A DNA stretch of 10,124 nucleotides. Source: a candidate division TA06 bacterium SM23_40. GTDB lineage: Bacteria > LJUI01 > SM1-40. Positions 54 to 10,124 of the stretch are shown here, in pieces (position 1 is the first letter of the stretch; every line of letters starts with the position of its first letter). The position numbers and the translations under genes were made by a program. Where the stretch lies: positions 1 through 10,124 of the forward strand of contig LJUI01000167.1 in the NCBI GenBank assembly GCA_001303705.1. The letters are read 5' to 3'. The notes below the pieces were generated by a model. The model was not told the origin of the DNA, did not search any database, and saw only the letters and a program-made list of their open reading frames with translations.

Positions 54-1203
54 ATGCCGAGACACAGCCCATTTCTCATCGATCTGACCGTCGAGGAGCG
101 AGAGGTTCTCAGGAGTCGGAGCCGGCAATATACGTTACCGTATCGTGACGTCATACGGGCCCGGCTTATCCTGCTTGCCGCTGAAGGCCTGTTCAACAAA
201 CAGATCGGAGAGCTGCTGAACCTCCCACGTGAGGTCGTCAGCAAGTGGCGAAAACGCTTCTATTTTGAGCGCCTCGCGGGACTGGAAGACCGACCGCGCA
301 GAGGACGCCCTGCGGTCTTTTCCCCCTCGGATCGTGTGTGAGGTCAAGGCACTGGCCTGCGCACTGCCAGCTGAAACCGGACGTTCGCTTTCGCGCTGAA
401 GCCGGGAGGACCTGAGGCGAGAAGTCATCGAACGCGGGATCGTGGCCGAGATCAGCGGCACCACGATCTGGCGGTGGCTCAGCGATGATGCCCTCCGGCC
501 CTGGACGCGGCGCAGTTGGGTCTTCCCCCGTGATCCCGAGTTTGCCGAGAGAGCGGGCAGGGCACTCGATCTGTATCATCGCATCTGGCAGGCACAGCCC
601 CTCGGCCCCAACGACTTCGTCCTGTGCGCGGACGAGAAGACCCAGCTTCAGATCCGGGAACGATGCCATCCGATCAGCCCGCCCGCTCCCGGTCGCCTGA
701 TGCGGGTTGAACACGAATACCGTCGTCATGGGGTCTGCGCCTACCAGGTGGCCCGGGATGTCCATCGCGCCAGGCTGTTCGGGCACGTCGTTCAGAGCTC
801 GACCATCGAACACTTCGATCGGCTGGTTGCTCAGGTGATGACCACGGCTCCCTACCGATCGGCAACCCGGGTGTTCTGGATCGTTGACAACGGCACCATC
901 CACCGTGGCCAGCGTGCCATCGACCGCCTCCAGACCCGATGGCCGAACCTCGTGCTGGTGCATCTGCCCCTGCATGCAAGCTGGCTCAATCAGGTAGAGA
1001 TCTACCTGTCCATCGTGCAGAGAAAGGTACTCACTCCTGATGATTTTACCAGCTTCGGCCAGATCGCAGATCGCATCCTGGGCTTTCAGTCTCACTACCA
1101 GGAGGTTGCCCGTCCCTTCGACTGGAAGTTCACACGCCAGGACCTGGCTCGCACGCTCGACCGCGTGCAGGACTACCGGATGCGACCTGCCCACGCGGCG
1201 TAA
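54..1203 (+). pseudogene. IS630-family DDE transposase, broken by a frameshift and a nonsense codon
   Basis: This is the transposase of an IS630-type insertion sequence (cut-and-paste, TA target), now inactivated. Residues 1-96 read in one frame (54-341) and hold a helix-turn-helix at about 48-68 (NKQIGELLNLPREVVSKWRK), the end-binding part. The frame then changes: from 331 the protein continues in the frame +1 to it (IVCEVKALACALPAETGR...), which an extra base in the T4C5 run near 317-325 would explain. That frame meets TGA at 397-399 in the context LSR-stop-SRED, where relatives as I recall them have Trp, so TGG to TGA is likely. It then stays open to TAA 1201-1203. The catalytic triad is present: Asp codons at 631 (CADEKT) and 886 (IVDNGTIH), Glu at 997 (ASWLNQVEIY). 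Repaired, the protein would be about 382 residues, near full length. No terminal inverted repeats could be matched; the left end may lie outside the window. A programmed -1 frameshift is unlikely, because the shift is in the other direction and the TGA would remain. Confidence 0.9.
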
Positions 1204-1424
1204 TCTTCAAGAATACGTGATAGAACTTCTGAACTGATGTACTAGTTACAACTGCTGCTCATCCTACGCCAAGTATGGGCGGCATGTCAAGGAGGAAAGG
1301 CAACAATCAGCACCGACCGATTCCCACAGCTTCGTCACATGTATCAAGGAAATCCTGTGCCATATTTGTGCCAACTTCGTGCATCACTCCTCGTAATTGA
1401 CCGCACTCATCGTAGTCATCGTAA

Positions 1425-1469
1425 AACGAACTTCCGCCTTCTGGGACAATGAGTCAGGCGGAAGTCGTT
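1425..1469. repeat. Strong inverted repeat / stem-loop (9 + 4 bp)
   Basis: ACTTCCGCC at 1430-1438 pairs perfectly with GGCGGAAGT at 1457-1465, around an 18-base loop. Below a single bulged A at 1429 the stem continues as AACG (1425-1428) with CGTT (1466-1469). Read on the minus strand the stem is followed by TCGTTTTA-like sequence, so it could act as a weak intrinsic terminator for leftward transcription. On the plus strand no T-run follows. No gene that it would terminate is visible. Confidence 0.6.
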
Positions 1470-1620
1470 GCTTGACAGCCCCGTATGAAATTGTGCTCCG
1501 TACGGATTTCAAGTCCGCTGCGTTACCAGTCAGGACTAGCCCTCCGCGGCTGCCTGCCTCATCACTGACGAGCTCGAGAAGATCGTGAGATAGGAGTACT
1601 GGAGAACGCCCACAACAAGC

Positions 1621-1695
1621 CGCGGGGTGTCCCCTAAGCGCGAGCGCGGTCGGCTGGTTCACTCACGCAGTAGATGTCAGGTCGGACACCCCGCG
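1621..1695. repeat. Perfect 12-bp inverted repeat bounding a 75-bp element
   Basis: CGCGGGGTGTCC at 1621-1632 has its exact reverse complement GGACACCCCGCG at 1684-1695, with 51 bases between. The pairing stops sharply at both ends of the arms. The interior has no open reading frame of note and contains the GC-rich stretch GCGCGAGCGC (1638-1647). A short non-autonomous mobile element (MITE-like) or a structured RNA or DNA hairpin are both possible. I did not find a target-site duplication, nor matching arms on the IS630 remnant, so it is not assigned to that element. Confidence 0.7.
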
Positions 1696-1703
1696 ATTAC
1701 ATA

Positions 1704-1739
1704 CTGGTCAGCGGTATATCCTATGAGTCCGCTGTCCAG
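1704..1739. repeat. Imperfect stem-loop next to the 75-bp element
   Basis: CTGGTCAGCGG (1704-1714) faces CCGCTGTCCAG (1729-1739). All bases pair except one T-T mismatch, around a 14-base loop. It starts nine bases after the 12-bp inverted repeat ends, so the two structures sit in tandem. There is no T-run after it, so a terminator role is not supported. Confidence 0.5.
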
Positions 1740-2254
1740 GTCGTATTGTTCCATGTCAGGTGGATCGGAGTCCTCGTCGCTATCTGTCTCCTGTTCTCAG
1801 TATGTGGACATAATATTGCTCGTCCCGGCACGTCCTGTATCATCTCGACTCAGATGCTCTCATGCCTCAGGTCACGACTGTAACGGATCGATCCAGCTTC
1901 CGGCCGACATACGCGCCCGAACGCTGCACTCGTAAGAAGCAATATCCGTGCCCATGTGCCGGCGATCGGTACGAGGGAGGTGCCGCGTCCCGCGTCAGTG
2001 CGCCGGCTCACTAACCTCGCCCGCATCAATAGATTCCCACACACACACGCACGTGCGTCTGCCATCGGGAAGCGGGCCGCACAATGATGATGTTCGGCGG
2101 CTCGTACAACCGTTGGGGGATGATACCCACGCCGGGCGGCAGTTCTCCGATACCGTCTATCTAACGAGCGAACTGGCAAGCCTTATCTTCCCTGTGCCGA
2201 TTTCCCCAACACGTGTGTGATAACTCCCAGCAGCCACGCGGCCACCGATCGGTA

Positions 2255-2325: not shown

Positions 2326-4383
2326 TTGTATAGAAGCGTGAGGTGTGCCCTGCTGGCGTTCTGCCTTGTTGCCCTCGCCCCGGGATGCAGACGAGAGGGC
2401 GAAGCACCGCGCCACGCGGAGTCCGGTGCCAGGCTCGTGATCGGAGTGACGGCCCTTCCCTCGGCGGCCAACCCGCTGGTGCCGGACTATTCCCGGACAG
2501 CGGATGTCGGCGACATCCTCTACGCGTCACTGCACACGGACGGCGCTGACGGCAAGATCGTGCCTGCCCTGGCAAAGCGCTGGGCATTCTCCGAGGATCT
2601 GCGCGATATAATCTTCCAGATACGTGATCAGGCAATCTGGAGTGATGGTACACCGATCTCGTCCGCCGATATCCTGTTCACGCTGGAGAGGATCAGTGAT
2701 CCCGCCTCCCGAGCGCGATGCGCCTCGTCTGTAGGCCTCATCCAGAGCGTCGAGTGCCCGGGAGAGGAGACCGTCGTCTTCGGGTTTGCGAACGTATTCT
2801 CCCGTCAACTCCGCTGCACCGGGTTCCCGGTACTGCCCCAGCACGTGCTGCGAGGGATCGTCGACCTGTCATCGCCTGACCTCAGATGGCCCCTGGTATC
2901 GAGCGGCCCGTTCATGTTGGCGGCGCGGGAGGATGGCCGGTTCGTCGAACTCGCCGCCAATCCGCGGCACTTCGGCGCCCCGCCCTCCGTCGATGCGATC
3001 GTCCTGTGGCAGGCTCAGGACGGCGAGGCACTTGCCCGCGAACTTGGCCTCGGCCACCTCGACGTAGTAGACGGACTCCCCCCGCGTTACTACGAGCAGC
3101 TCAGGAGCGACGGGGAGATCCTGCTCCATCGGCATCCCGGGAGTTCCGTCATCTTCCTCGCCTGGAACCTGCACGACCCTCTCGTCTCGTCCCTCGATGT
3201 GCGCCGGGCGCTCACTCATGCGATCAACAGGCGTCAACTCGTGGATGGTCCGCTGTATGGTCTGGGAGATGTTGCACACGGGCCGCTGCCATCCACGTTC
3301 TGGGCCGCCAGAGAACAGCAGGGCAGGATACCGGCCTTCGACACTACGGCAGCCAACAGCATGCTCGAACAGGAAGGATGGAGGCGAAGACCGCGGAGGA
3401 GATGGCGCGAGAAGGAGAGACGGCCGCTCGAGCTCACCCTCCTGGTCGACCACGCGATCCCGGCGGGAGAAGAGATCGCCCGGGTGGTTGCCGATCAGCT
3501 GGCGGGCGTAGGAGTCTCGCTCGAGATCGCAGTCCTCGAGCCCGATACCCTTGCCCAGCGGCTCCAAGACGGGACCTTCACCGTCGCCCTTCTCGAGCGC
3601 ACCGTGCGGAGCGATTTCGAGCCCGCGACATGGTGGCACTCCGATCCTCATCTCGGATGTCTCAATGTGGGAGGATATGCCTCGGCTTCCGTCGACAGTC
3701 TGCTGCAACGCATCGATCGAAAGCTGAGAGAGGAGGAGACAGCCGAGGAGTGGGCGCTGCTCCAACAGCGCCTGCTGGATGATCTGCCCTGCACCGATCT
3801 CGTCGAACCGGAGAGGATCGTGGCAGTCAATCGAAGGGTGCGCGGGTTTGATGGCCGCGACCCGAATCTGTACCGACAACTCGATCGCTGCTGGATTCCG
3901 AGAGGTGAGCGTGTCACCCTAGAGATAGCGAGCCTGGGGATGATCCCGGAGGAGCAGATCGAGGCCGCGCCCCGCCCGACTCCGATCCTAACACCGCCAC
4001 CGCCATTGCCCCGAGCGGAGGAGATAGTAGAGGTGGCCGAACCGGCCGTTCTCGAGAGCGACACGGCACAGACGTCGACCCAGACAGGTACATCACCCCC
4101 GTTCCACGAACCGGTCGTCGTCGATCCCCGGATCCTGACACTTGCACCTGCAGTCTATCCCACGTCGGCCAAGCCCATGCGAGCCCAGGGGGTAGTCGAG
4201 GTCGAGGTGCTCGTCGGACCGGACGGTCAACCGCGAAGAACGCGCATCGCTTCGTCGTTCGGCCATCCCGCCTGCGAGCGGGCAGCAATGGAGGCGGCCA
4301 TGGCGTCCCGGTTCACGCCCGGAACGAGAGATGGTGTGCCCCGCGAGATGTGGGTCCGCATTCCCTACAACTTCCGCCCCTAG
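2326..4383 (+). CDS. Solute-binding lipoprotein (SBP family 5) fused to a TonB C-terminal domain
   Basis: A 685-residue exported protein. Residues 1-21 form a signal peptide (MYRSVR, then a hydrophobic run) ending LAPGC; Cys21 is the likely lipidated residue, although Pro at -2 makes this an imperfect lipobox. Residues about 36-525 are a family 5 extracellular solute-binding protein (DppA/OppA/NikA type, binding peptides, metals or other ligands for ABC importers). The evidence is WSDGTP at 105-110, SSADILFTLERISDP just after, and a FLAWNLHDPLVSSLDVRRALTHA-type block around 277-300. An Arg-rich stretch at 353-366 replaces the usual acidic DxDG-type loop. A proline-rich linker (about 548-562) leads to a TonB C-terminal domain at about 600-685: YP at 611-612, GVVEVEVLVGPDGQP, an AAMEAA helix, RFTPG and a final IPYNF. 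This domain normally touches TonB boxes of outer-membrane receptors. No permease or ATPase gene is adjacent. Ligand unknown. The two domain calls are firm; the joint function is inference. Confidence 0.9.
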   Translation: MYRSVRCALLAFCLVALAPGCRREGEAPRHAESGARLVIGVTALPSAANPLVPDYSRTADVGDILYASLHTDGADGKIVPALAKRWAFSEDLRDIIFQIRDQAIWSDGTPISSADILFTLERISDPASRARCASSVGLIQSVECPGEETVVFGFANVFSRQLRCTGFPVLPQHVLRGIVDLSSPDLRWPLVSSGPFMLAAREDGRFVELAANPRHFGAPPSVDAIVLWQAQDGEALARELGLGHLDVVDGLPPRYYEQLRSDGEILLHRHPGSSVIFLAWNLHDPLVSSLDVRRALTHAINRRQLVDGPLYGLGDVAHGPLPSTFWAAREQQGRIPAFDTTAANSMLEQEGWRRRPRRRWREKERRPLELTLLVDHAIPAGEEIARVVADQLAGVGVSLEIAVLEPDTLAQRLQDGTFTVALLERTVRSDFEPATWWHSDPHLGCLNVGGYASASVDSLLQRIDRKLREEETAEEWALLQQRLLDDLPCTDLVEPERIVAVNRRVRGFDGRDPNLYRQLDRCWIPRGERVTLEIASLGMIPEEQIEAAPRPTPILTPPPPLPRAEEIVEVAEPAVLESDTAQTSTQTGTSPPFHEPVVVDPRILTLAPAVYPTSAKPMRAQGVVEVEVLVGPDGQPRRTRIASSFGHPACERAAMEAAMASRFTPGTRDGVPREMWVRIPYNFRP

Positions 4384-4475: not shown

Positions 4476-4567
4476 GGCGTCCTGATACCGCGCCCATCCG
4501 TTTCCTCAGACCGCGTGCGATGGCGTTCTGATACCGAGCCCATCCGTCTCCTCAGACCGCATGCGCG
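4476..4567. repeat. 46-bp tandem direct repeat, two copies plus a fragment
   Basis: Unit 1 (4476-4521) and unit 2 (4522-4567) match at 40 of 46 positions, with shared cores CTGATACCG, GCCCATCCGT and TCCTCAGACCGC. A third, decayed copy starts at 4568 (AGCGTCCTG, then AGCCCATGGG). Copies are directly adjacent with no spacer, so this is not a CRISPR array. 46 is not a multiple of three, which argues against a repeated peptide. Confidence 0.85.
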
Positions 4568-4632
4568 AGCGTCCTGTGAGCCAGCCCATGGGCGTCGCGA
4601 GGCAGTGTTCGTGGGCATACATAATCTATCCC

Positions 4633-4812
4633 GTGGGCGCAGCCTGTATCGTGGGCGTAGCCCTCGTCATGAGCGTGGCCTGGGTCGTGCACATAGCCCG
4701 TGCCATGGGCGTAGCCCAGGTCGTGAGCGTAGCTCTGACCCTTGGCGTGGCTCGCGTCACGAGCGCACCTCGGGTCATGAGCGCAGCTTGTGTCAAGGGC
4801 GAAGCTTGGGTC
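4633..4812. repeat. 18-bp tandem repeat array, ten exact-length units
   Basis: Ten consecutive units of exactly 18 bases share a consensus close to RTGRGCGTAGCYTGGGTC. Positions 6, 11 and 18 are unchanged in all ten units, while positions 1, 4, 8, 9, 12 and 13 vary mostly by transitions. Position 12 is C in units 1-5 and T in units 6-10, so the array splits into two sub-blocks. Poorer copies of 17-18 bases flank it to about 4900, and a 22-base copy precedes it (4611-4632). Read in codons, plus gives a VGVAWV-like hexapeptide and minus a DPGYAH-like one. Neither has a start with a ribosome site, and substitutions do not clearly favour third positions in one frame. Role unknown; a minisatellite or protein-binding array is possible. 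Confidence 0.9.
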
Positions 4813-5222: not shown

Positions 5223-8200
5223 ATGACGAAGGAGCGGATCGGGAACTATGAGATACTGAGCGAATGTGGGCGAGGAGCACTCTCCCGCGTCCTCGAGGTT
5301 GTCGACTCCCGATCCGGAACAGTATGCGCCCTCAAGCAGGCGCTCAGCGAGAGCGAGGCGTGCCGCTGGCACCTCGTACAGGAGTTCGAGACGCTCTCGC
5401 GGCTCTCACATCCCAATATCATACGAGTACTCGACTGCGGCACCTCTGACGACGGCAGGTTCTACTTCACGATGGAGTACGTGGAGGGGGTGCCTGTCAC
5501 CCAGGCTCTCCAGGGGTACAGCAAGAACCTCGTCCATGTAATCGGTCAACTGCTTGATGCACTGATCTACATCCATTCCCAGGGTCTTGTCCACGGCGAC
5601 ATCAAGCCGACCAACATCCTCGTCGCCAAGGACGCGAGCGCCTCCGACCCACTTCCCCGAGCCCTGCTAACCGACTTCGGATTCTCACACCATCCCATCG
5701 CAGACTACCACGACAGGCTTGGAGGTACTATCGGGTACGCCGCTCCCGAACTGCTGAGGGGTGAGCAGCTCGACGGCAGAGCCGACCTCTATTCTCTCGG
5801 TCTCGTCATCTACCAGATACTGACCGGCAGGATTCCCTACCGGGCCGACCGGCCTATCGAAGTCCTCAGGGAGCAGTTCACCGAGGATCTGGATCCGCCG
5901 CGCTCGATCGCTCCGGATGTCTCTTCCGACGTAGACCAGCTCATCGAACGGCTCATCGCCCGGAGAGCATGCGATCGAGTATCATGTGCAGAAGAGGCGC
6001 GCGCTCTCCTGTCGCCCGACCATCCGGACCGGGCGCGCCCGACGATTCGATCAGGGGTAGTCTGGCGTCTTGCCCTCCCCTTCGTTGGACGGACTGAGGA
6101 GCGAGCGAAGGTCCACGAGCTCTATCAGCTCGCGTGTCAGGGAAAGGGACAGGTGGTTCTCGTCAAAGGCTGCAGGGGAATCGGCAAAAGTCGACTGCTC
6201 CGCGAGATCGCCGTCGAGCTCCAGCTACAGGGAGCACGGGTCGTGAGCGTCTCGTTCACCGGCTCCGCTCTCGACTCCCTCGAGGCGATCCAGCGGAGAT
6301 GGGGGCGATCGCCCTCCTCAGGGCGCGGCGAAATCTCGCCAGGGGACGACCGTGGAACGATGCGCCTGTTCAGACATATGCTCGACGATCTGACAGCCGG
6401 CACACACGCCCGACCGAAAGCGAGCCGAGCTATGGTCCTCATCATAGACGATGCACATCTCGCGGATCGCTCCTCCAGGGAGTTCCTGCGGTACATGCTC
6501 CACTCCATCCGTCAGCGGCATATCCTCGCCCTGCTCGCTGCGGGAAGCGACGAAGCGCTGGAACGTACCTTCACCACCAACGATCAGGATACGACACTCA
6601 CAACGATTCACCTCGATCCACTGAGCAGAATAGAGACGGTCTCTCTTGTCTCCCAGGCACTGGGCGCCCACGTCCAGGGAGATGAGATCTACGATGCTGT
6701 ATATGACGAGACCCGAGGGAATCCCCTCCTCATCAGGGATCGACTCGCAGCGGCAGACGGAACGACCGGGACACCTCTACCTGCGACGCGGCCGATCCTC
6801 TCAGAAGTCGCAGACAAGATTGGCGACACCATCGCGGCGCTCCCCGGTCTGGAGCGTGGCATACTCGCGGTCGCCGCTCTGGCGCCCGGCCGGACATCGA
6901 TCGGCCTCCTGACCGCCGTCCTCGACCAGGCCCCTGGTCCCCTGCTCGAGGCCCTTTCCGTGCTGGAGCGGAAACACATACTCACCGCCACCCGCACCGA
7001 GACATCAGGTCCACCCATCTATGAGTTCGATGACCGAACATCGCGAGACGTAGCATCAGAGTTGGTCTCGTCCGAAGAACGTCAGCATATCCATGCCCGC
7101 ATAGCGGGATACCTCTCCGAGTTGCCGTCCTCGGAGGAGGCGACGGTCGCTGCAGACATCGCCTACCATCTCCTCCAGGCCGGGCGAGACGTTGAAGCAC
7201 GTCCCCATGCGAGAAGGGCTGGATACTCTGCACTCCAGTATGGTGATCGCCACGCGGCGGCGCGATACCTCGCGGCGTCACTCCCTCCGGGGCACGGAGA
7301 GCGTCCCACCGATGAGGAGTGCAGCACGATCTCTTTGCTTGTCGAGCTGTACGAGAAGCTGGGGCAGCCGCTCGAGGCTGCCGAATGGCAGCAACGTCTC
7401 GTCGACACGAGACGACGCGACCAGGACCTCCCCGCGCTTCCCGAGCTCGAACGTCTGGAACTTCGTATGGCATCGCTCCTCAGAGCCGCCGGGCGGTACG
7501 ACGAGGCTCTGACGCATCTCTACAGTGTGGCGCAGGCAGACGATCCAGTACTGCGAGCCCGCGCGTCTGCGGAGCGCGCCCGGATCCACGGGCTCACCGG
7601 CCAGATCGAGATGGCGACGACTGCCGGCGACGAGGCGCTCGCACTGCTCAACTCGATCGAGGATCCTGGCGAGCGGAGTGCCGTTCTCCATGCAGGAGCA
7701 ATCGCTCACTGGCGGGCGCGAAATACCGAGAAAGCACTCATACTCTGTGACCGGGGCCTCGCCTCGGCCTCCAGGTCGTCAGACGAGGAGATGGAGGCGA
7801 GACTCTGGGGGCTGCGATCCATCCTCCTCGGTGAGACCGGAGCGTTCGAGGAGGCGCTCACAAGCCACGAGACAACCCTCCGCCTGCAGAGGCAGATCGG
7901 GGACGTGCGGGGCGAGATGCTCACCTACTACAATCTGGGCCGTCTGGCTCAGGACAGGGGTGATTGGCCCGAGGCGGTGAGGTACTTCAAAGGGGCCCTC
8001 CCCATCGCCGAACGCGTGGGTGACGCGTCCATGACAGCAAAGATCTGTCATGCCTATGCCGTTGTCAAGAAGGAGCAGGGAGAGTGGCCTGAGGCGGCCC
8101 GGCTCCTCGAGCAAAGCGCCGATCTCTATCGCCGTCTCGGCGAGCAGGCGGACTGGGCATCCTGCCTCGACAGCCTGGCCCTGATTAGGGCCGGTCAGGG

Positions 8201-10124
8201 AGAGGTGGACGAGGCGTTTGCGCTGCTCCAGCAGGGAATGGAGCTTCGCGAGCGTTCCAGCGGGAGGAGTTCCCTTGGCTTCAGTCACCAGAAGTTCGGC
8301 CAGCTGTACCTCGAACGGGAGCAGTTCCAGGAGGCGAAGAAATATCTGTCGAGAGCATTGAAGTCATTCGATGCGCAGGGCATATCGAACAAGGCTGCCG
8401 GGACTGCCATCCTCCTCGCGGAGACGAATATCCGACTTGGACATCTCGTAGCCGCTCGCCGTCTGATCGACCGGGCGCTCCGCCTCTGGGGCGATGCCTG
8501 TCCGGATCTGGATCGCGGGGATGCACACCGTGTACAGGCGCTCCTCGCGGCCGAGCGGCGACGTACGGAAGAAGCCAGACACCACTTCGATGAGAGCATC
8601 CGGATCCTCCGCAATCTGGGTGCCCGCCCTCTCCTGGCGAAGACCCTCACCCAGGTTGCGCGCTGGCTGCTCGAGGAACACCTAGCCCGAGCAGGGACCT
8701 CGAGAGACGAACGGGGAGTTGCCAGGGCGCAACCGCTCTCACCGAAAACCCACGAGTACCTGAAGGAGGTGAGAACCATTTATACCTCTATGGACGCAAA
8801 ACTATACTGGTCCGCGCTCGACGGGCTCGTCGATTCAGCATTCGACTTGCTCGGCCCGGGCGGGCCTGCCGTCCACGACCAGGACCGCCTCATGAGGGCC
8901 TTCTCCGAGTTCGGCCAGATCATCCAGCGGATCGACGACCGGCAGGCCCTGCTCACGGAACTCCTCGATCGGCTGATCGAGCTCCTGAGAGCAGAACGGG
9001 GCGCGCTCTTTGTCTGTCGCTCTGATCTCGACACGCCGTTTATGGCAGTGGGCAGAAACATGGACAGCGTCTCTGTAGACGATGCATCGAAACTCTCACG
9101 CCAGGCGGTCAGGGCTGCCACCGCCACTTCTCGACTCATCGTCGTAGGAGATGCGGAGAACGATCCGTCGTGGAAAGATTACCCGAGCATTCGCCTCAAT
9201 CACATCAGATCACTCCTCTGTGCGCCGCTCATAGTGGGAGGATCGGTAAAAGGTGCGCTCTATCTCGACAGCAGCCTCGAAGCAGACCTGTTCACCGAGG
9301 ACGCCCAGAGCTTCGTCGCCGGCCTGGCTGCCCTTGTGGGGGGCGTGCTCGACGCCTCCGACCTGTACGAGCGGACGCTGAGAGAGAACGTGCAGTTGCG
9401 GAGCCAGCTCGGAAAGCCACATGCGTTTCGCGACATCATCGGTGAGTCGCCCGCCCTGGCCCAGGCCCTCCAGCTCGCCGAGCGAGTAGCATCCACCGAC
9501 GTGGTCATTCTCGTCCAGGGCGAGACCGGGACGGGCAAGGATCTTCTGGCACAGGCGATCCACAACTGCAGCAGCCGGCGGGATGGACCGTTCCTCAGAG
9601 TCGATTGCGGGGCCCTTCCGGAGACGCTCCTCCAGTCCGAGTTGTTCGGCCACGCGAAAGGAGCATTCACCGGCGCCCACCGCCAGCGGAACGGCCTGAT
9701 CCGCCAGGCCGACGGCGGGACGCTCTTCCTCGACGAGATCGGGAATGCTCCCGAATCGGTGCAGCGGATGTTGCTAACGGTGCTTGAGTCTGGCGAGGTG
9801 AGGAGTATCGGCGACGATGCCTGGAAGAAGGTCGATGTGAGGATCATCTGCGCCACCAACCAGGACCTGGCTGCGCGCGCCGCGGGCAACAGGTTCAGAC
9901 AGGACCTCTTCTATCGAATCAGCGGGGTGACTGTCGAACTCCCGCGCCTCTGTGAGCGAGGCATGGACATTCTTCTCCTCGCCGAGCACTTCGTCGAACT
10001 CGCCGCCAAGCAGCTCAACCGGAATGTCCGTCGCTTCGATTCCTCGGTGCAGTCGTGTCTTACCCAACACAGTTGGCCCGGCAATGTCCGCGAGCTGCAG
10101 AACTGTGTCCAGCGGGCGGTCGCC
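5223..10124 (+). CDS. Ser/Thr kinase - AAA ATPase - TPR - GAF - sigma-54 activator fusion (3' end outside the window)
   Basis: One frame runs from ATG 5223 (GAGG at 5210-5213) to the window edge without a stop: 1634 residues so far. Residues about 9-260 are a Hanks-type Ser/Thr kinase with glycine loop GRGALS (16-21), ATP Lys38, catalytic HGDIKPTN (124-131, Asp126), DFG (151-153) and APE ending at Glu176, so it looks active. Residues about 285-520 are an AAA_16-type ATPase: FVGR 287-290, Walker A GCRGIGKS (316-323), Walker B LIIDDAH (Asp409-Asp410). About 640-1160 is helical with TPR repeats, clearest from 902 (YYNLGRLAQDRGDWPEAVRYF). About 1226-1385 is a GAF domain (LLCAPLIVGG, GALYLDS). From about 1423 comes a sigma-54 AAA+ domain: GESPAL, Walker A GETGTGKD (1433-1440), GAFTGA (1480-1485), FLDEIG (Asp1504-Glu1505) and WPGNVREL. 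No membrane segment is seen, so it is probably cytoplasmic. A Fis-type helix-turn-helix is expected beyond the edge. Target promoters and signal unknown. Confidence 0.93.
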   Translation, partial: MTKERIGNYEILSECGRGALSRVLEVVDSRSGTVCALKQALSESEACRWHLVQEFETLSRLSHPNIIRVLDCGTSDDGRFYFTMEYVEGVPVTQALQGYSKNLVHVIGQLLDALIYIHSQGLVHGDIKPTNILVAKDASASDPLPRALLTDFGFSHHPIADYHDRLGGTIGYAAPELLRGEQLDGRADLYSLGLVIYQILTGRIPYRADRPIEVLREQFTEDLDPPRSIAPDVSSDVDQLIERLIARRACDRVSCAEEARALLSPDHPDRARPTIRSGVVWRLALPFVGRTEERAKVHELYQLACQGKGQVVLVKGCRGIGKSRLLREIAVELQLQGARVVSVSFTGSALDSLEAIQRRWGRSPSSGRGEISPGDDRGTMRLFRHMLDDLTAGTHARPKASRAMVLIIDDAHLADRSSREFLRYMLHSIRQRHILALLAAGSDEALERTFTTNDQDTTLTTIHLDPLSRIETVSLVSQALGAHVQGDEIYDAVYDETRGNPLLIRDRLAAADGTTGTPLPATRPILSEVADKIGDTIAALPGLERGILAVAALAPGRTSIGLLTAVLDQAPGPLLEALSVLERKHILTATRTETSGPPIYEFDDRTSRDVASELVSSEERQHIHARIAGYLSELPSSEEATVAADIAYHLLQAGRDVEARPHARRAGYSALQYGDRHAAARYLAASLPPGHGERPTDEECSTISLLVELYEKLGQPLEAAEWQQRLVDTRRRDQDLPALPELERLELRMASLLRAAGRYDEALTHLYSVAQADDPVLRARASAERARIHGLTGQIEMATTAGDEALALLNSIEDPGERSAVLHAGAIAHWRARNTEKALILCDRGLASASRSSDEEMEARLWGLRSILLGETGAFEEALTSHETTLRLQRQIGDVRGEMLTYYNLGRLAQDRGDWPEAVRYFKGALPIAERVGDASMTAKICHAYAVVKKEQGEWPEAARLLEQSADLYRRLGEQADWASCLDSLALIRAGQGEVDEAFALLQQGMELRERSSGRSSLGFSHQKFGQLYLEREQFQEAKKYLSRALKSFDAQGISNKAAGTAILLAETNIRLGHLVAARRLIDRALRLWGDACPDLDRGDAHRVQALLAAERRRTEEARHHFDESIRILRNLGARPLLAKTLTQVARWLLEEHLARAGTSRDERGVARAQPLSPKTHEYLKEVRTIYTSMDAKLYWSALDGLVDSAFDLLGPGGPAVHDQDRLMRAFSEFGQIIQRIDDRQALLTELLDRLIELLRAERGALFVCRSDLDTPFMAVGRNMDSVSVDDASKLSRQAVRAATATSRLIVVGDAENDPSWKDYPSIRLNHIRSLLCAPLIVGGSVKGALYLDSSLEADLFTEDAQSFVAGLAALVGGVLDASDLYERTLRENVQLRSQLGKPHAFRDIIGESPALAQALQLAERVASTDVVILVQGETGTGKDLLAQAIHNCSSRRDGPFLRVDCGALPETLLQSELFGHAKGAFTGAHRQRNGLIRQADGGTLFLDEIGNAPESVQRMLLTVLESGEVRSIGDDAWKKVDVRIICATNQDLAARAAGNRFRQDLFYRISGVTVELPRLCERGMDILLLAEHFVELAAKQLNRNVRRFDSSVQSCLTQHSWPGNVRELQNCVQRAVA

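Follow-up and report, generated by a model that had tools for sequence, protein, structure and literature searches.

A family-5 solute-binding protein with a lipoprotein-type signal and a TonB C-terminal domain, conserved in three sampled little-known bacterial lineages

Introduction

Family-5 solute-binding proteins usually work with an OppC-type permease, and ordinary TonB has an N-terminal inner-membrane helix with a His residue for coupling to ExbB and ExbD. The window analysed here, a stretch of 10,124 nucleotides, is contig C147 in full, from a draft genome of 2.88 Mb, and one of its genes places a family-5 binding protein and a TonB C-terminal domain in the same frame. We focus on two questions: is this architecture real, and what could a TonB domain do at the end of a binding protein? 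The literature that we searched, consisting of open-access papers, contained no description of such a protein.

Domain organization and predicted structure

The frame of the fused gene, at 2326-4383 on the forward strand, is open throughout its 685 codons. It starts with TTG at 2326, 6 nt downstream of a ribosome-binding site, GGAGGT, that can be read at 2314-2319, and ends with a stop codon at 4381-4383. Residues 1-20 form a lipoprotein-type signal peptide, MYRSVRCALLAFCLVALAPG (2326-2385), followed by the codon for Cys21 (2386-2388), the residue expected to bear the lipid. A family-5 binding protein with both lobes complete in the structural model occupies residues 27-530 (2404-3915), a flexible spacer with the Pro-rich stretch PRPTPILTPPPPLP covers residues 531-599 (3916-4122), and the TonB C-terminal domain fills residues 600-685 (4123-4380). 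Pfam calls both domains above its curated cut-offs: SBP_bac_5 at residues 77-426 (2554-3603; E = 7.5e-57, 193.5 bits against a cut-off of 32.4) and TonB_C at residues 609-684 (4150-4377; E = 1.5e-17, 64.3 bits against 24.6). The latter match, a complete domain, spans profile positions 3-78 of 79, in agreement with the NCBIfam model tonB_Cterm (55.1 bits, cut-off 27.1). The first-pass annotation of this DNA had read the frame as a full binding protein joined through a Pro-rich spacer to a complete TonB C-terminal module, and had named the lack of a TonB_C match at residues 600-685 as grounds for abandoning that reading; the profile searches bear the reading out. A chance or weak match to TonB_C is ruled out by Pfam, NCBIfam and the structural matches to TonB.

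The full-length AlphaFold2 model, built from 44 sequences, has a mean pLDDT of 85.4, with both domains mostly at about 90 or more and spacer residues 547-592 below 50, predicted to be disordered. The best fold match of the binding domain is AppA (1xoc; E = 2.5e-42, TM 0.88 of the target), a structure solved with a nonapeptide and also the nearest by sequence (E = 7.4e-33); NikZ is likewise among the nearest folds. The tail modelled alone, from two sequences (pLDDT 85.7), takes up the TonB fold, as had been supposed from its letters, and is closest to TonB solved on receptors: TbpA:TonB (Z 12.6), FoxA:TonB (Z 10.3) and BtuB:TonB (Z 9.2), with FhuA-complexed TonB also among the matches.

The lipobox of the window protein, APGC, is imperfect, with an unusual Pro at -2, and the N-terminal hydrophobic peak reaches 1.54 at residue 4. 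Cys21, however, falls in an alignment column that holds Cys in each of the 13 fused proteins aligned, and canonical lipoboxes such as LSGC occur in relatives from another lineage (the third, described below); it is because of this Cys and these lipoboxes that we read the segment as a lipoprotein signal. Hydrophobicity of the sequence reveals no obvious second membrane helix, in line with the earlier expectation that none would remain after cleavage at Cys21. If the signal is cleaved there, ExbB/ExbD would have no helix to drive, and the TonB part would keep just its grip on receptors. The accompanying suggestion that Arg22 at +2 would favour sorting to the outer membrane is not supported: the +2 sorting rule is a rule of Enterobacteria and says little for these phyla.

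Distribution and origin of the fusion

The genome of the window is the sole representative of its phylum in our sample. Two further lineages were found, one by searching distant genomes (the phylum of genome G030, the second lineage) and one by a scan of 386 widely sampled genomes that scored the best two candidates in each (the phylum of G132, the third lineage). The second lineage has the two domains in the same order in 4/4 genomes, in proteins of 764-800 aa. The third has both in 10/10 genomes of four genera, with eight intact frames; of the other two, one runs off its contig and that of G394 is interrupted by unknown bases. The fused architecture is thus present in all 15 sampled genomes of the three phyla, and the protein is a family conserved throughout three sampled little-known lineages, no lone oddity. 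On the best two candidates per genome of the 386-genome scan, nearly all of the other sampled families either lacked the architecture or did not show it.

An error of assembly, which the first-pass annotation had raised as a threat to its reading, or one of frame is ruled out by the same domain order in 14 further genomes, in two further phyla, together with the good start site. Misplacement of the contig in a wrong bin is not favoured either, its tetranucleotide profile correlating with that of its own genome at 0.97.

Scanning named genomes gave no relative when the query was just the window protein; a rescan with an alignment brought up mainly binding proteins of the ordinary kind, the records of use being L131 and L163. 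The latter, from a WOR-3 metagenome, contains the start of a likely family member at 2652-3199 (+), whose first 157 matched residues share 47% identity with the fused proteins; its contig ends ahead of where a tail would be. A TonB-dependent receptor lies divergently from this start, at 153-2144 (-).

In a tree of binding domains, built with the TonB part left out, all three lineages fall into a single clade among 32 unfused relatives (support 98/98). The window branch is very long (1.92), and leaving it out brings no change that the data reject. The fused tails also cluster relative to the ordinary TonBs of the same genomes (90/92), a grouping that is based on 90 columns and is not conclusive. 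Since fused binding domains and fused tails each cluster, a single ancient fusion, inherited or transferred and kept since, is probably the origin of the family. Convergent fusion in three phyla is not favoured, as both domains group apart from unfused ones, with the caveat that the window branch is very long and the tails are short.

What lies between the domains has been kept less strictly. The spacer ranges from 70 to 135 residues; proline makes up 18% of it in the window protein and 23-30% in one sister lineage, whereas the other sister lineage has an acidic spacer with 4-7% proline. The description of the spacer as Pro-rich thus applies to the window and one sister lineage and fails in the other. 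Because the spacer has diverged into two such unlike kinds, its length and flexibility alone appear to matter. In the tail of the second lineage, the Tyr of the YP motif, which sits near the receptor box, is gone.

Permeases, receptors and neighbouring genes

No permease gene stands beside the fused gene in the window or in the neighbourhoods of 11 other genomes. In the second lineage, rho adjoins it, and in the third, its neighbours are a Peptidase_M19 dipeptidase gene and pyrE/pyrF (rho and the pyr genes being named from their sequences); in several third-lineage genera, this membrane dipeptidase gene is divergent from the fused gene. L099, on the other hand, the nearest unfused relative with a checked neighbourhood, is encoded beside OppB and OppC. 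Genome-wide, OppC_N was found in 0/15 fusion genomes against 11/14 controls, a count that comes from a single 53-position model applied to drafts 88-100% complete (12 of them at least 90%), so that a divergent permease could escape it; the same search readily detected the OppC of L099 (40 bits). The window protein is the only SBP_bac_5 protein of its genome, in which the permeases that can be named are of sugar or phosphate types, namely two MalF/MalG-like pairs and PstC.

Receptors show the opposite distribution. Plug-domain receptors occur in 15/15 fusion genomes, with three to six in each, against 3/14 controls, and the window genome has six. Several have TonB-box-like motifs near the N-terminus, e.g. 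LEELVVTASR and MKGIVVTATR. None is encoded next to the fused gene in the three complete lineages. The window genome also has a separate ordinary TonB (C129, 205 aa) with helix and His, and an ExbB/ExbD pair adjoining a receptor gene, which answers the earlier question of whether genuine TonB machinery exists alongside the fused protein.

Related domains also occur in other proteins of these genomes. In the window genome, a zf-HC2 anti-sigma-like protein (L003, 637-1743, on contig C146) follows an ECF-sigma-like frame and ends in a TonB_C match that is weak, right at the cut-off. In G132, two tandem family-5 lipoproteins stand directly before genes for a HAMP histidine kinase and a response-regulator-like protein, without a permease (L237, 5400-9905). 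The phylum of G132 also has a protein of 1118 aa with a chemotaxis-receptor (MCP) signalling domain and a C-terminal family-5 binding protein (L238, 3722-7075, and L115, 1-2994), a fusion that occurs in several genomes lacking OppC. The pairing is odd, as the signalling domain is normally cytoplasmic and the binding protein normally exported.

Comparison with known systems

The fused protein can be set against four known arrangements. First of all, it shares with TonB (Pfam PF03544; E. coli 1u07, 2gsk and 2grx) a complete beta-alpha-beta tail preceded by a spacer; the tail is 25-29% identical to solved TonB tails and has the YP and GxVxVxxxVxxDG motifs. It differs in that a lipoprotein-type signal and a binding protein of 500 residues stand in place of the His-bearing inner-membrane helix, and its gene lies outside any exbB/exbD operon. 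Second, like the Opp/Dpp/Nik lipoproteins (AppA 1xoc, NikZ 4oet, DppA), it has a lipoprotein-type signal and a complete two-lobed fold, but it adds about 155 C-terminal residues with the TonB domain, its gene is outside a transporter operon and OppC-type permeases are undetected in its genomes. Third, the contacts of E. coli TonB with the binding proteins BtuF and FhuD, reported in work cited in PMC3813593 and PMC9853854, are alike in their presumed working, with a TonB domain bringing a periplasmic binding protein to a receptor. As described there, however, two proteins meet transiently and TonB is energised, whereas the fused protein is one polypeptide without the TonB helix; BtuF and FhuD also belong to another class of binding protein than the family-5 domain. 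Finally, MxcH-type receptors (NCBIfam NF038079), whose first 85 positions the fused protein matches weakly, are a case in which TonB_C has moved to another part of an uptake system, although their TonB domain is N-terminal and fused to the outer-membrane receptor itself.

A proposed docking adaptor

The explanation that we prefer, and to which we give an even chance, is an adaptor in the periplasm, anchored by a lipid, which docks on TonB-box receptors through its TonB domain and takes the cargo that they release with its binding domain. After export and cleavage at Cys21, the protein would hang from a membrane by its N-terminal lipid. The helix-less gripping domain, judging from its fold and homology, would pair with the TonB box of receptors, and the binding domain, on its flexible spacer, could then capture what the receptor lets go into the periplasm. 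With grip and catcher in one chain, the binding site would be brought to the receptor's periplasmic mouth. The nearest structures, AppA and NikZ, suggest that the cargo is probably a peptide-like ligand or a metal chelate. With OppC-type permeases undetected, whatever is bound would have to be handed on to something else, which might be periplasmic peptidases or another permease.

Much of the evidence given above fits such an adaptor, which the first-pass annotation had proposed: two complete and confidently folded domains, a tail that matches TonB solved on receptors, one ancient fusion that was kept, receptors in every fusion genome, OppC detected in none, and the divergent dipeptidase gene. 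The idea of docking at a receptor gains support from these two counts, of receptors and of OppC. Furthermore, TonB without its transmembrane segment suffices to release cobalamin from BtuB, and BtuF takes it onward (PMC9853854); contacts of TonB with BtuF and FhuD have also been reported (cited in PMC3813593). Other observations weigh against it: the missing Tyr near the receptor box in the second lineage, the split of the spacer into two unlike kinds, the lack of an adjacent receptor gene, the limits of the OppC_N count and, in the third lineage, family-5 proteins whose histidine kinase neighbours or MCP fusions favour sensing as much as transport.

A bolder claim would be that the tail opens or holds the receptor without ExbB/ExbD, that the tied binding protein takes the cargo and that Opp-type importers have been dropped. 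We put this forward tentatively, at less than even odds; if true, nutrients fed in by receptors would be captured in the periplasm without a classical ABC permease. The idea that TonB brings binding proteins to a receptor, suggested by its contacts with FhuD and BtuF, does not lend itself to testing while the partners meet transiently; as a one-chain fusion has been kept over three lineages, it becomes testable with a single purified protein. The fusion also separates the gripping function of TonB from its energy function, with a helix-less tail conserved in every sampled genome beside ordinary TonB, and its genomes suggest that several uncultured phyla take up nutrients without permeases of the Opp type.

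Alternative explanations

The main rival holds that the protein regulates uptake and carries no cargo: as a ligand sensor or gate, the state of its binding domain would decide how far the tail occupies receptor boxes, throttling or competing with genuine TonB. We regard this as unlikely, at roughly one chance in five. The lack of a TonB-type helix, and hence of energy input, would suit it, as would the lack of an OppC permease to receive cargo. The permease-less family-5 proteins of the third lineage point the same way, and because of their HAMP histidine kinase neighbours or MCP fusions, family-5 domains in that phylum seem to have turned to sensing. The fused protein itself, however, has no signalling domain and gives no sign of ligand-dependent masking of the tail, and it would take a strong reason for every genome to retain a pure competitor.

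It is less probable still that the tail is a tether to some other envelope partner (a Tol or Bam component, a secretin or peptidoglycan) and simply holds a binding protein or chaperone in place. The tails of TonB and TolA have a common fold, TolA follows TonB in the list of structural matches, and the weak TonB_C tail of the zf-HC2 anti-sigma-like protein suggests that the module also has uses other than energy transduction. In both sequence and structure, however, the tail is nearer to TonB than to TolA, whose structures reach Z 7.2 or less against 9-12.6.

There is very little to recommend the view that the protein is an energised TonB into which a binding protein has been built, its signal left uncleaved in the inner membrane and coupled to ExbB/ExbD. 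The imperfect lipobox and weak hydrophobic peak of the window protein would fit; against this stand the invariant Cys and the canonical lipoboxes of the third lineage. Residues 1-21, which end at the lipobox Cys, also contain no His, a residue found at this place in the genomes' ordinary TonBs, and such a TonB is present besides.

Least likely of all is continued importer service through an ABC permease without a recognisable OppC_N segment, the tail being an accessory: the model is short, the drafts are incomplete in part and one of the six permease hits in the window genome (C88) is left unclassified, but none of 15 genomes, 12 of them at least 90% complete, yielded what was easily found beside L099.

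Other features of the window

An Rfam search of the whole window gave no match. Upstream of the fused gene, a transposase lies in two frames (3-341 and 442-1203, +), a helix-turn-helix part and then DDE_3; it is IS630-type-like and probably frameshifted. Tandem repeats of 18, 36 and 46 bp lie at 4476-4812, in the interval that separates the fused gene from the one after it. At 5223-10124 (+) is a giant regulator that is ended by the contig end and has, in a single chain, protein kinase, AAA, TPR repeat, GAF and sigma-54 activator domains.
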